Source of the DNA: Streptomyces sp. SID13031
GTDB taxonomy: Bacteria > Actinomycetota > Actinomycetes > Propionibacteriales > Kribbellaceae
DNA: 64,000 nucleotides
Assembly (NCBI RefSeq): GCF_010548305.1
Contig: NZ_JAAGLV010000012.1
Location: 124,001 to 188,000, forward strand
Direction of reading: 5' to 3'
Shown here: in pieces, positions 23,657 to 59,962 of the stretch
Layout: each line of letters starts with the position of its first letter
Position numbering within the stretch: the stretch's first letter is position 1
The notes under the pieces: model-generated
Seen by the model: the letters and a program-made list of their open reading frames with translations, nothing else
Told to the model about the DNA's origin: nothing
Databases searched by the model: none
Position numbers and translations under genes: made by a program

Positions 23657-23768
23657 TCACGCATTGTGTCTGCCTTCAGCCACCCCCGCTACCCGTGCTG
23701 TGGTTTGCGGGGTACTGCGGTGAGGACGACGGTAGAGCCCCGTTGCGGAATGGGACAGTGTGCATAAC

Positions 23769-23850
23769 GGCAGGAAGTAGTGCCCGTACTGCGGCCGGGC
23801 GCCGCCTCCGTGAGCGTGGCGCCCGGCCGAACGCCCGACTACTTCCTGCC
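23769..23850. repeat. 82-bp nested inverted repeat (terminator-like)
   Basis: Outer arms of 13 bp (23769-23781 and 23838-23850) and inner arms of 12 bp (23792-23803 and 23818-23829) are both perfect inverted repeats around a 14-nt loop. The 282-bp gap that holds it contains no convincing gene. It lies downstream of the phytase-like esterase and upstream of the oxidase, both leftward, so it could end the first transcript. There is no T-run. Confidence 0.7.
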
Positions 23851-23938
23851 CTTGTGTACAGCCACCCCGGATCCCGGGCCTTTCCGCAGCCCCCGCCACC
23901 TGAACGAGAGTGGCTAGAGGCAACGACCAGTGCAGGTA

Positions 23939-34978: not shown

Positions 34979-35078
34979 GTCCCGACGGACAGGACATAGT
35001 CGCCGGCCAGCCTGCTCGCCGCGCTCAGGGAGGCCGCGACTCGGCGCGATATGGGGACTATGTCCTGTCCGTCGGGAC
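34979..35078 (+). repeat. 100-bp palindromic element, copy A
   Basis: The element is exactly 100 bp with perfect 22-bp inverted ends (34979-35000 and 35057-35078; outer bases GTCCCGACGGACAGG, inner bases GACATAGT). A 56-bp centre holds two short conserved pairings (CGCC/GGCG and GCCT/AGGC). It sits between convergent genes, 3 bp after the ATPase stop. Its right arm encodes the last residues and TAG stop of the nuclease-like gene. Copies B and C share length, ends and orientation. Confidence 0.9.
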
Positions 35079-35978
35079 GCCACACCTCTGCGCAAGCGCC
35101 TCCCGAATGGTGGCGATCACCCAATCCGGCTCATTCAGCACCTGGTGATAGGTGAATCTCAGCACCAGCCAGCCTTCCGCGACCAGTTCGTCGTAGCGGC
35201 GGCAATCGGCAGCGAAGTCCTGACTCGATCCGTGGAACTCGTATCCCTCGGCCTCCAGCGCGATCTTGGCCTGCCGATGCCCGAGATCCACTCGCGCGCG
35301 GAACCACCCTCTCTCGATCACGACCTGCGGTTCGAAACCCTCGATGCCGTTCTGGATCAGCAACGCACGCAGCATCGACTCGAGAAAGCTCTCGCCCGCT
35401 GCGGTGGCCAGCGCGGCTACCTGACGGGCCTTGGTGCAGCCGGATCCACGCATCGCCGTGGTCGCCGCGATCAGTTCTCGGCGGGTCAGCCCACGGTTCA
35501 AGCTGGAGTCGACGACCGCGAGCGCCTCGCCGAAGGGCAGGATCCGGGCGCAATCAGTCACCGATCGAAGCATTGAGGTCAGACGACTCGACTGGTCCTC
35601 CGCAGAGGTTGAGGCCCAGTGCAGCACCGCGGGCGGTCCGGAGCGAGGGCGGCGCTTCTTCGGCAAGGTGATGTGCGGCTTCTGGGGTGGCGCGAGCAGT
35701 GGCAGTTTCCACGCGAGTGCTGCGCTCAAGTGGGACACGACTCCGTCGTAGGCGACGGCAATGAGTTGATCAGTCGACGGACCAGGCAGGCCGTAGACAC
35801 CACGCGCCAGCCGCTGGACGCAACCATCCCGCACGGCTGCCGCGAGTTCTCGTTTCGAGGCGACGTGGGTCAACTCGGCGAAGGTGGCTCGACCACCCAG
35901 CCGGGCCAGTACCTCAGGCAGGGATTCCACCGGCAGATTCTGCCGCCTGGTGCCCTGCCCGCGCTGAAGTTCATCCAC
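35058..35978 (-). CDS. AbiEi-type winged helix plus DUF559 (VSR/RecB-like nuclease) protein
   Basis: The 306-aa protein begins with a wHTH resembling AbiEi-type antitoxin N-termini (VLARLGGRATFAELTHVASK, DGCVQRLARGVYGLPG). It ends with a DUF559-like nuclease fold: candidate catalytic residues D231 (RARVDLGHR) and E242/E244 (IALEAEGYEFHG), then GWLVLRFTYHQVL. GTG 35978 (VDELQRGQGTRRQ) is preferred to ATG 36002, which lies inside repeat copy B. The last six codons and the stop lie inside copy A. No partner toxin gene is adjacent. Role unknown: possibly DNA processing or defence. Confidence 0.85.
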   Translation of the reverse strand: MDELQRGQGTRRQNLPVESLPEVLARLGGRATFAELTHVASKRELAAAVRDGCVQRLARGVYGLPGPSTDQLIAVAYDGVVSHLSAALAWKLPLLAPPQKPHITLPKKRRPRSGPPAVLHWASTSAEDQSSRLTSMLRSVTDCARILPFGEALAVVDSSLNRGLTRRELIAATTAMRGSGCTKARQVAALATAAGESFLESMLRALLIQNGIEGFEPQVVIERGWFRARVDLGHRQAKIALEAEGYEFHGSSQDFAADCRRYDELVAEGWLVLRFTYHQVLNEPDWVIATIREALAQRCGVPTDRT

Positions 35979-35983
35979 AGGCT

Positions 35984-36083
35984 GTCCCGACCGACAGGAC
36001 ATAGTCGCCAGACAGCCTGCTCGCCACGCTCACGGAGGCGGTGGGCGGGCGCGCTGACGGCACTATGTCCTGTCGGTCGGGAC
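35984..36083 (+). repeat. 100-bp palindromic element, copy B
   Basis: Perfect 22-bp inverted ends (35984-36005, 36062-36083) and a 56-bp centre that aligns to copies A and C without gaps. It differs from copy A at end position 9 (C instead of G) with the matching change in the other arm, so pairing is kept. It lies between the nuclease-like gene start (6 bp away) and the hxlR-type gene. Confidence 0.9.
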
Positions 36084-36121
36084 GGACCCCTACCCAACGC
36101 TGGGTGAGCTACGCTCGAATA

Positions 36122-36517
36122 GTGAGTAACTCCTCAGTCACGTACGAGGCGTACATGCACGACTGTCCCGCGGTGGCGTTGCTGTCGACGATCAGCAACC
36201 GGTGGGTCAGCCTGACGATGTGCACCCTCGGGTCGTTCGGCGAGCCGATGCGCTACAGCCACGTCAGCCGGGAGATCCCCGGCGTCAGCCAGAAGATGCT
36301 CACCCAGACCCTGCGCATGCTCGAGCGGGACGGAATGGTGCAACGGACGGTCACCCCGACTGTGCCGGTCCGCGTCGACTACGAGCTGACCCCGCTCGGG
36401 AAAGGCCTGTACGGCTTGCTGGCCCAGGTGCGCGACTGGGCCGCCGACAAGACCGACGAGGTCGATGGGGCGCGAGCGCACTATGACACTCAGAAGACCG
36501 GCAAAGTAACGCACTAA
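36122..36517 (+). CDS. HxlR family transcriptional regulator
   Basis: The 131-aa winged-helix protein has a near-N-terminal Cys (YMHDCPAVALLSTISNRWVS) and the HxlR pattern FSREIPGVSQ-like (YSHVSREIPGVSQKMLTQTL) with the wing DYELTPLGKGL. HxlR proteins often sense electrophiles or redox state through that Cys and control adjacent oxidoreductases. Start GTG 36122. It most likely regulates the quinone-oxidoreductase-like gene 86 bp downstream. Confidence 0.92.
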   Translation: MSNSSVTYEAYMHDCPAVALLSTISNRWVSLTMCTLGSFGEPMRYSHVSREIPGVSQKMLTQTLRMLERDGMVQRTVTPTVPVRVDYELTPLGKGLYGLLAQVRDWAADKTDEVDGARAHYDTQKTGKVTH

Positions 36518-36534
36518 AAAGTGCCTACTTACTA
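36511..36534. promoter_or_regulatory. Possible HxlR operator ahead of the oxidoreductase
   Basis: GCACT-AAAA-AGTGC (36511-36524) is a short palindrome across the hxlR stop codon. It is followed by TACTTACTA (36526-36534). The reverse-complement word TAGTGAGTA, one mismatch away, lies at 36120-36128 over the hxlR start. The shared word near both starts suggests a common operator. Confidence 0.4.
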
Positions 36535-36603
36535 ATCGATCGTAACTCCCCTAGCGTTCATAGCGTTCACAACGTTCGAACAGCAAAGGGAAGAGTGAAG
36601 ATC

Positions 36604-37527
36604 ATGCGCGCAGCAGTCGTGCGGAAGACCGGTGGACCCGAGGCCGTCGAGGTCCTGGAGGTCCCCCTCCCGGAACCAGGTCCCTTCGAGGTCCGCATCA
36701 AGGTAGCTGCGGCGGCGCTCAATCCCGCCGACGCCGCTGTCTGGGCCGGGTTCTTCAGTCCGTTGGAGGAGGTCGACCACACCGGTCTCGGGCTGGACGC
36801 CGCCGGGACGATCGACGCGGTTGGCGTGGGTGTCTCCCTGAAGGTCGGCACCCCGGTGATCGTGTTCGACGCCCCGGTACTGCGCCCGACGAAGGCCCAG
36901 GCCGAGTACGTGGTGACGGATCTCAACTCCATCGCCCCGGCCCCCGATGGGATGGACCTGACGCTCGCGGCGACGATCCCTCTCAACGCGATGACCGCCT
37001 CACTGGCCCTGGATCAGCTCCCGCTCCGCCCCCGCGACACTCTGCTTGTCACCGGCGCGGCGGGGGCCGTTGGCGGCTATGCCGTCGAGTTGGCTCGGAC
37101 GCGGGGCGTGCGGATCGTCGCGCAGGGGCGGCCCGAGGACGAGGAGTTCCTTCGCGGTCTTGGCGCCACTTGGTTCGTGTCGCGCGACGAGGAGCTGAGT
37201 GAGGCGGTCCGCCGGTTCGTGCCGGAAGGTGTGGACGGCGTGCTCGACGCGGCGGCGTTGGGCGCGCCGGCATTGGCGGCTGTTCGCGACGGCGGCATCT
37301 TTGTGAGCGTGAGGGCTGACGTGCTGCCGGAGCCGCAGCGGGGCGTGGCGGTGCGGCTCACCACCGCCGGTCCCGAAGCGACCCGGCTCTCGTACCTGTC
37401 CGCGCTCGCCGAGGTTGGCGTGCTGACGCCTCGCGTGGCGCAGATCTACCCCCTGTCGCAGGCTGCCGAAGCCCATGCTCAGCTGGCCCGGGGCGGCCAG
37501 CGCGGCCGGATCGTGCTGGTGCCGTGA
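36604..37527 (+). CDS. NADP-dependent zinc-free alcohol dehydrogenase/quinone oxidoreductase family protein
   Basis: The 307-aa MDR-family protein has the N-terminal GroES-like domain (MRAAVVRKTGGPEAVEVLEV, NPADAAVWAGFF) and a Rossmann domain with TGAAGAVGGYAVELARTRG. It lacks the zinc-ligand pattern of classical alcohol dehydrogenases and so is quinone-reductase-like. ATG 36604 is preferred to GTG 36595 because of the GGGAAG ribosome binding site spacing. It is likely under control of the upstream HxlR protein and overlaps the SRPBCC gene (GTGA). Confidence 0.9.
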   Translation: MRAAVVRKTGGPEAVEVLEVPLPEPGPFEVRIKVAAAALNPADAAVWAGFFSPLEEVDHTGLGLDAAGTIDAVGVGVSLKVGTPVIVFDAPVLRPTKAQAEYVVTDLNSIAPAPDGMDLTLAATIPLNAMTASLALDQLPLRPRDTLLVTGAAGAVGGYAVELARTRGVRIVAQGRPEDEEFLRGLGATWFVSRDEELSEAVRRFVPEGVDGVLDAAALGAPALAAVRDGGIFVSVRADVLPEPQRGVAVRLTTAGPEATRLSYLSALAEVGVLTPRVAQIYPLSQAAEAHAQLARGGQRGRIVLVP

Positions 37528-37997
37528 ACGCCGGGAGCGACACTGGGGAAGGCCCTGTAGCCACCGCGGTAACCAGGATCTCCGCTCCGGTGGAGGACGT
37601 GTGGCGCGTGCTCGTGGCCGTCGACCAGTACGCGCAGTGGCACCCGGTCCTGTCCCTCGACGCGAAGCCCGAACAGGTCGTGACCGGGGCGGAGATTCCG
37701 GGTCGCCGCTCGGGCGGCGGCGCCGCTGAGCAGGACGTCATCCTGAGGATCCTCGAGGTGGAGGCTCCCCGCCGGCTGGTCTGGGAGGGCGGATCGTTGG
37801 ACGCGATCCTCGGCAGACACTCGTTCGTGCTCACCGCGCAGCCGGACGGCACCACCGAGTTCACCGACTCGGAGGAGTTCTTCGGCGCCGCTGCTGCCGA
37901 ACTCATCCCGGCACTCGACCAGCTCAGCGAGGAGTACTCCCGCTACGGAGCCGCTCTGCGGGCACGCGTGGAGGACGGGCTCACCCCAGCGGGTTGA
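37524..37997 (+). CDS. SRPBCC family protein
   Basis: The 157-aa START/Bet v1-like domain is recognised from ATAVTRISAPVEDVWRVLVA, VDQYAQWHPVL and the C-terminal helix LDQLSEEYSRYGAALRARVE. Members bind a hydrophobic ligand or act as polyketide cyclases. It overlaps the oxidoreductase stop by 4 bp and so belongs to that HxlR-controlled unit. Its 3' end overlaps the convergent YciI gene by 17 bp. Confidence 0.85.
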   Translation: MNAGSDTGEGPVATAVTRISAPVEDVWRVLVAVDQYAQWHPVLSLDAKPEQVVTGAEIPGRRSGGGAAEQDVILRILEVEAPRRLVWEGGSLDAILGRHSFVLTAQPDGTTEFTDSEEFFGAAAAELIPALDQLSEEYSRYGAALRARVEDGLTPAG

Positions 37998-43602: not shown

Positions 43603-43702
43603 GTCCCGAGCGACAGGACATAGTCGCCGATCGGCCTACCGTCCACGCTCACGGAGGCGGTGAATCGGCGGGATAGAGGGACTATGTCCTGTCGGTCGGG
43701 AC
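43603..43702 (+). repeat. 100-bp palindromic element, copy C
   Basis: The same exact 100-bp length, 22-bp ends (43603-43624, 43681-43702) and orientation as copies A and B, with one uncompensated mismatch at end position 8. The centre can pair CGCCGAT with ATCGGCG (43625-43631, 43664-43670). A further TATGTCCTGTC at 43595-43605 pairs with GACAGGACATA at the left end, like the remnant of another arm. It lies between two rightward genes. Confidence 0.88.
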
Positions 43703-59388: not shown

Positions 59389-59962
59389 GAGCGTCGCGCT
59401 GTCAAGAAGGTCGGCCGGTGACACGCAGCGGCCGTACGGACCGGTCCGCAGCGTGATGGCTGGCTGCTGCCAAGTTGCTGGTCGTCGAAGGTGCGGTCGG
59501 CCGAGGCGTCTAGTGCTTCAGCGGGGGTTCGTGGTGGTGGGCGGCGGGCGCGGACGGCCACCACTCACCAACCTGCTGTTTCCGTCCGGGAGCGGGCCTG
59601 CGCACGGTGGGCTGGGTGTGATCAGGTGAGGTTGGTGAGTGGTGGCGGTCCGGCGTATCGCGTCGACCGCACGCTGAACATCACGAACTCCGGCGGTAGC
59701 ACTAGAGACGCTGGGGCAGGGCTGTGGAAGGCGCAGGCGTGGACAGCGTGGTGCTCATTAACCGGTCCGGGGAGGATTTTCGCTGGCGCCCGGGGTGTGC
59801 GCCCGGGGCGGATTTTCCCCCGGATCAGAACACACCCCGGATCGGGGGTGAAAGTCTCCCCGGTCGCTGTTCCTCACGGCGCTGTCGCGCGGCTGGCAGT
59901 TCGTCGGCGGCCAGTGGTCGGAGAGGGCGTCATTGGCCGACCTTCTTGACAGCGTGACGCTC
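59389..59962. repeat. 574-bp segment with 28-bp inverted ends (possible non-autonomous element)
   Basis: The ends 59389-59416 and 59935-59962 are inverted repeats with 27 of 28 matches. No target-site duplication is obvious. Inside are further inverted pairs (59551-59574/59629-59652; CCGGGGTGTG 59790-59799 with 59831-59840; CCGGGGAG 59767-59774 with 59856-59863). Open frames inside lack protein-like composition. It could be a small mobile element or a structured RNA. Confidence 0.6.
59551..59652. repeat. 24-bp inverted repeat pair inside the 574-bp segment
   Basis: 59551-59574 and 59629-59652 match as inverted arms at 23 of 24 positions (core GCCACCACTCACCAACCT) with a 54-nt loop. Confidence 0.8.

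Follow-up and report, generated by a model that had tools for sequence, protein, structure and literature searches.

Among described systems, REPIN/RAYT pairs come closest to the locus analysed here. PMC2817692, PMC8266576 and PMC3116915 describe palindromic doublets with conserved inverted ends and a spacer of set length but variable sequence, which are dispersed extragenically, together with a single gene lying between two elements of its own; gene and elements co-evolve, and element abundance tracks the gene. A second point of comparison is given by the AbiEi antitoxins of type IV toxin-antitoxin systems, including Rv2827c: according to PMC7319586, AbiEi and Rv2827c bind inverted repeats, and AbiEi antitoxins autoregulate. 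The protein considered here resembles them in its N-terminal domain, by profile and by fold, but its C-terminal half is a predicted nuclease, not an antitoxicity domain. The closest well-fitting fold of that catalytic domain belongs to I-Bth0305I, an EDxHD/Vsr-like homing endonuclease that lies in an intron, whereas the nuclease described here is fused to an AbiEi domain, and its gene stands between palindromes that occur in many copies. A full-text search of the literature, with most subscription papers and all preprints outside its scope, returned no description of this association between DUF559 and a palindrome.

The window, that is, the whole stretch of 64,000 nucleotides analysed, carries on its minus strand (35058..35930, likely GTG start at 35930, TAG at 35060-35058) a gene for an AbiEi-like wHTH domain fused to a DUF559 (Vsr/EDxHD-like) nuclease. 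The gene lies between copy A (34979..35078, plus strand) and copy B (35984..36083, plus strand, oriented as copy A and about 53 bp upstream of the likely start) of a palindromic element, and the whole element-gene-element unit spans 34979..36083. The likeness to REPIN/RAYT covers the paired inverted ends, the set length, the dispersal, the flanking of a gene by its own elements and the co-divergence of arms and gene. REPIN/RAYT, however, has an HUH/Y1 tyrosine transposase where we find an AbiEi domain and a Vsr/EDxHD-type nuclease, and compensatory pairing, common in REPINs according to PMC3116915, is mostly missing here. The system thus appears to work like REPIN/RAYT but is not one, because the defining HUH transposase is absent. 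The initial annotation had likened the locus to REP/RAYT systems, but with another kind of protein, one that might process, mobilise or be carried by the element; the results support this proposal.

The coordinates of the gene and of both copies bear out the earlier statement that the gene lies exactly between A and B. Each copy is exactly 100 bp long, with near-perfect inverted ends of at least 22 bp (end sequence GTCCCGANNGACAGGACATAGT), and the two are 83% identical; the inverted arms of copy A read GTCCCGACGGACAGGACATAG, with a CGCTCA motif at the centre. As had been noted, copy A supplies the last six codons of the nuclease (V-P-T-D-R-T) and its TAG stop. The longest ORF (35058-36002, minus strand) begins at an ATG at 36002 within copy B. 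This alternative start, which the initial annotation had pointed out, is present but probably not used, because translation more likely begins, judging from aligned homologues, at GTG 35930, which is not part of copy B. The scanned neighbours of the gene encode a transporter permease, an HxlR regulator and an alcohol-dehydrogenase-like protein, and no AbiEii nucleotidyltransferase toxin was found among these neighbours at the window locus. An Rfam scan of the window at gathering thresholds gave no match.

As judged from profiles and a predicted structure, the protein is an AbiEi-like DNA-binding domain joined to a putative nuclease of the Vsr/I-Bth0305I kind. The DUF559 profile scored 30.9 bits (cut-off 20.6), and the PADLOC AbiEi profiles matched residues 39-177 (3.6e-12); AbiEi_4, at E up to 1, was found in 25/25 homologues, with E 0.01, below cut-off, for the window protein. 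Residues D230, E241, H248, D257 and R260 are invariant across the 25 homologues and form what we take to be the catalytic acidic/His/Arg motif expected of such nucleases. The AlphaFold model was mediocre (mean pLDDT 65). In a Foldseek search with it, a T. gondii mitoribosome protein ranked first with a poor TM (at most 0.27), AbiEi (6y8q) second with a low TM, the I-Bth0305I catalytic domain (3r3p) fourth with a TM of 0.81 by target length and 2.7 Å over 100 columns, and Vsr 23rd. A profile search of PDB sequences weakly recovered the endonuclease-like 3hrl and 3r3p (E 0.02 and 0.8). No Y1 transposase was present among the 11 Pfam families matched by the 25 homologues at E<=1, which are led by DUF559, MTES_1575 and AbiEi_4; by its domain content, the protein is not a RAYT.

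Homologues were collected by a protein search over 38 Kribbella genomes, and we sorted them into three similarity classes. The elements beside them are 85-110 bp long, with conserved inverted arms of about 20-22 bp, a variable interior and the motif CACGCTCA at the centre. Those of the window type measure 99-101 bp in all 36 paired copies; their arms are 92-93% identical, the interiors only 50% on average (28 oriented 100-bp copies). The central motif, ACGCTCA or its complement, occurs exactly in 26/80 class I and 18/40 class II flanking elements (mononucleotide-shuffle means 0.33 and 0.18, respectively), and with one mismatch allowed it sits, in the interiors searched, at 0.52 of the length of the element (s.d. 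0.05). The set of 36 comprises elements in which both arms were recognised; L050, L058 and L063, in which one arm is degraded or absent, were left out, as was the chance match L039. Four elements (L038, L043, L050, L063) have mixed arms, ACATAGT following GACAGG at one end and TAGTGCACC or TAGTACT standing at the other, as though one end had come to be recognised differently.

With up to three mismatches, the arm pattern had 6 matches in the window against 0.16 expected from shuffles. The three copies reported earlier (A, B and the solo copy C with class I arms, an arm-pattern match at 43603..43702, plus strand) are real, but the window also holds a fourth class-I-type copy (23760..23859, minus strand), whose GGCAGGAAGTAGTG arm variant resembles the arms flanking the second class I nuclease gene of the genome, on contig C9. 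Furthermore, a class II-type element with arms CGGACGGCCACCACTCACCAACC lies at 59551..59652 (plus strand; exact core 59558-59645). This element, together with L299, L290, L291, L293, L294 and L298, occurs in a repeated context in the window genome and in G042, with flanks that read about GTTCGTGATGTT from either side; in G042 the likeness of these elements exceeds that of their flanks. The covariance-model search suggested in the initial annotation was carried out with a model, R1, built from 29 element copies, and it found at least 61 distinct class-I-type places in the window genome (E up to 0.0014); the true number may be higher, since scoring was limited to 150 of 16105 candidates. Two elements of this genome, L044:138-262 and L051:2976-3100, have upstream flank sequence in common, and five elements of the relative G028 start 125-210 bp from contig starts; both observations hint that the element may be part of a larger repeat. 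In another relative, G004, an array-like cluster of three elements occupies about 760 bp (L101:4065-4826).

The initial annotation had spoken of hairpin elements of constant length. The constant length held, whereas the arms look like two DNA sites and not like a conserved hairpin RNA, because base-pair covariation between them is lacking. RNAalifold does pair the stem, but only 2 of the 18 predicted pairs had any two-sided change that keeps the pair; the others are invariant or broken by one-sided changes, and positions 8-9 vary freely. Conserved RNA structure was accordingly rejected as a description of the element.

Bracketing by such elements proved to be the rule for this gene family. Four genes of the window genome passed the PF04480 cut-off, and the protein-query search added more distant ones. 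A first count, in which only 1/4 PF04480 genes stood beside an ACATAG-type arm, had pointed to a passenger gene; it was overturned when the covariance model and hairpin scans revealed variant arms. The contig C9 DUF559 gene, a degraded copy, likewise lies between two elements, with a different arm (GACAGGAAGTAGTG). Only two pairs among the 61 class-I-type places are less than 1.1 kb apart (on C31 and C9), and both enclose a DUF559 gene; random placement gives about 0.5 such pairs, and two or more in 8% of trials. A de novo scan beside each gene for inverted repeats of 85-125 bp (at least 16/20 complementary) was then applied to the Kribbella homologues: 88 loci, of which 86 had a tblastn match (L198 and L199 had none), left 70 genes after removal of 16 duplicate loci. 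An inverted repeat was found on at least one side of 67/70 genes and on both sides of 50/70, against 8 of 420 control windows (1.9%). Further class II genes gave 16/20 on at least one side, with no separate control, and distant class III genes only 2/12 (L305, L198) clearly bracketed by matching arms. Outside Kribbella, where the count covers the 20 genes fetched among those listed, 17/20 had a repeat on at least one side and 9/20 on both (control windows 4/120). A random distribution of elements with respect to DUF559 genes, which the initial annotation had held against its own proposal, is thereby refuted; as to its other objection, orthologues free of the element, those of Kribbella are nearly always flanked, by arms of their own lineage. 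Six nuclease genes with stops or frameshifts (L097, L170, L175, L176, L178, L185) still adjoin inverted repeats, which suggests frequent decay. The relative orientation of the flanking elements varies, being direct at the window locus and inverted in L195; by score, 31 of 60 genes have direct and 29 inverted pairs, most of them weak, which speaks against LTR-like direct repeats.

The arms follow the gene that they flank. For the 60 of the 70 genes whose hairpins reached at least 15 on the upstream and 14 on the downstream side, which also served for the orientation counts, the arms of one gene's two elements gave a mean UP-DN score of 19.85, compared with 8.21 between genes, and none of 5000 permutations reached 19.85. 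Arm similarity correlated with protein identity (Mantel r 0.70; maximum of 1000 permutations 0.12), also within class I alone (r 0.42), although part of this co-divergence would be expected from shared descent at orthologous loci. Solo elements matched the arms beside the class I genes in their own genome better (mean score 17.7) than under permuted genome labels (13.0; maximum of 10,000 permutations 16.3). This test covered 19 solo elements of 13 relatives and left out the gene-flanking L082 and L089, the window genome itself and G011, which has no class I gene. The own genome scored best in 9/19 cases; R1 matches such as CAGGCAGTAGT in G004 and GCTAACGACAGGAGGTAGT in G007 carry the arm of the resident class I gene, whereas G012, G014 and one of two elements in G015 misfit theirs. 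These own-arm copies of the relatives were recovered although R1 had been built on the arm of the window genome.

At the level of whole genomes, R1 matches were found in 31/31 genomes with a class I gene, broken ones included, and in 2/7 without one (Fisher p 4e-5, phylogeny ignored and flanking elements counted), so that the co-occurrence is partly circular, gene-flanking elements being matches themselves. Zero matches were seen in 5/38 genomes, all five without a class I gene. Elements outlive or do without a resident enzyme in G029 (27 matches) and G011 (4), which have no class I gene, and in G042 (58, both strands counted), where the gene is broken. The class II arm pattern occurred in 14/38 genomes, its reversed control giving 0 matches, and its copies were found chiefly in genomes where a class II gene had been fetched whose arm is identical or differs at a single base (Spearman -0.48, 33 genomes; the 3 mismatches of G025 reflect a 20-nt frame that lost its first base, and G035, with 4 copies, falls outside the comparison, which covered genomes with a fetched class II locus). 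As exceptions, G036 has the arm and 0 exact copies, and G007, G010 and G024 have 1 copy each. Outside the genus, the GTCGGACGACCA arm pair occurred in 3/20 genomes: G129 and G198, whose genes carry the arm, and G068, with one copy away from its fetched gene. On these comparisons, there is a tendency, with exceptions, for solo copies to fit the nuclease of the genome in which they lie.

These data bear on whether the gene is cargo. MITEs associated with DDE transposases are likewise short, non-autonomous and bounded by terminal inverted repeats, and an unrelated transposase might move such elements in trans, with the DUF559 gene simply caught between two of them. Small size, the elements of G029 and G011, and the variable orientation of the flanking pair all agree with that account, yet we regard it as unlikely: the same gene family, spanning 39-83% identity and other genera, is bracketed nearly always, the close R1 pairs of the window genome enclose only DUF559 genes, and the arms are common to both sides of a gene, whereas cargo would not be expected to co-diverge with the ends. 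Target-site duplication is also absent at the element borders, unlike in DDE MITEs, and the associated gene encodes a nuclease: an exact repeat of at least 4 bases was found at the borders of 0/36 copies, the longest repeats with shifted borders being 6, 5 and 5. Because matching arms adjoin the gene in lineage after lineage, we argue that the protein probably acts on the element rather than only being carried by it.

Comparison with relatives next addressed mobility. The initial annotation had called for a site lacking the gene and an element, and the close relative G042 lacks the whole unit where G028 has it: in G042, the stop codon of the ABC-ATPase gene is almost directly joined to sequence matching window position 37980 onward, while G028 carries element, gene and element in 1107 bp, with a single base difference between the two elements. 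Next to this ATPase gene, G038 and G034 also have a unit, but its arms are of another variant. The adjoining stretch beyond copy B (36110-37972: the HxlR regulator, the alcohol-dehydrogenase-like gene and the next ORF) is absent from this place in both G028 and G042, which implies a gain in the lineage of the window genome or a loss in each of the two relatives. When the flanks of solo copies were joined and compared with five relatives, 6/10 loci aligned across the junction without the element (nine alignments), the exact borders being blurred by indels or divergence. L031 and L062 had a model match at matching places in G028, where the element was kept, and 98 unaligned bases lay at the element place for L046 in G042 and L049 in G028. 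Among nine class II-like copies of G042 (81-87 of 87 positions identical), the cores of L290 and L295 are identical at 87/87 while their flanks are unrelated (26% and 34% identity). The presence or absence of the unit as a block, the insertion polymorphism of solo copies and the identical cores at unrelated sites show that the elements have been mobile. A plasmid search gave two weak matches.

A doubtful alternative is that the nuclease only cuts existing copies, which are then rewritten from one another, so that arms stay matched by homing-type concerted evolution with no de novo insertion. It fits I-Bth0305I, a homing endonuclease, being the best convincing fold match, the near-identity of the two G028 elements, and five of the G042 copies, whose flanks are similar on both sides (53-70% identical, with cores identical at 85-87 of 87; a sixth is similar on one side). 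Homing alone, however, leaves unexplained both the empty sites and the new sites with unrelated flanks (L292, L295, L297), although rewriting of this type may act in addition.

Of the 36 copies, 24 begin no more than 80 bp from where a gene oriented towards them ends, a placement shared by 18% of 298 random positions outside ORFs and by 10% of 1440 random positions overall; 7/36 lie between convergent genes. Both observations would suit transcription terminators or stabilisers of mRNA 3' ends maintained by selection, with the nuclease association secondary. We consider this highly improbable, given that arm changes are mostly uncompensated, that no T tract is present in the element consensus and that arm type follows nuclease lineage. 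Alternatively, the elements may be fixed operators, where an AbiEi-like regulator or nucleoid protein would bind beside its own gene and at a regulon of paired sites scattered over the genome, with nothing mobile. Binding of inverted repeats and autoregulation by AbiEi antitoxins (PMC7319586), the behaviour of the arms as DNA sites and not paired RNA, and the nearly fixed length of 100 bp are in line with operators. But relatives differ in whether they have the solo copies and the gene unit, identical cores stand at unrelated places, and a position just after the stop codons of genes reading towards the copies is unexpected for operators, which makes this reading quite improbable.

From these results, a two-part selfish system emerges as the probable explanation: a short palindromic element and a one-gene nuclease that recognises the arms of the element, in which, we infer, the nuclease drives the spread. 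The following mechanism may be proposed. The AbiEi-type N-terminal domain would bind each arm in its double-stranded form, probably pairwise across the inverted repeat; because the arms vary independently, recognition of a double-stranded site is suggested rather than of a hairpin, unlike in RAYTs. The Vsr/EDxHD-type domain would then cut at the element, or at a target that closely follows a stop codon, and repair would seal a copy of the element into the new site, often near a stop codon. Two neighbouring elements and the gene between them could move as one composite, thereby spreading the nuclease gene, and the same binding could allow the protein to regulate its own gene through copy B. On balance, we lean towards a new class of bacterial mobile elements, in which AbiEi-guided Vsr/EDxHD-type nucleases would be the dedicated mobilisers of cognate palindromic miniature elements, a REPIN/RAYT lifestyle evolved independently with double-stranded arm recognition, present in Kribbella and related genera of the order, with several nuclease-element specificities within one genome.

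If so, a widespread domain of unknown function, DUF559, gains a testable role, and the REPIN/RAYT way of life has apparently been reinvented with an unrelated enzyme. The natural series of nuclease-arm pairs could be used to decode DNA recognition by AbiEi-type domains. Should the nuclease move DNA and leave no target-site duplication, the enzymes known to spread mobile elements would be joined by a new class.
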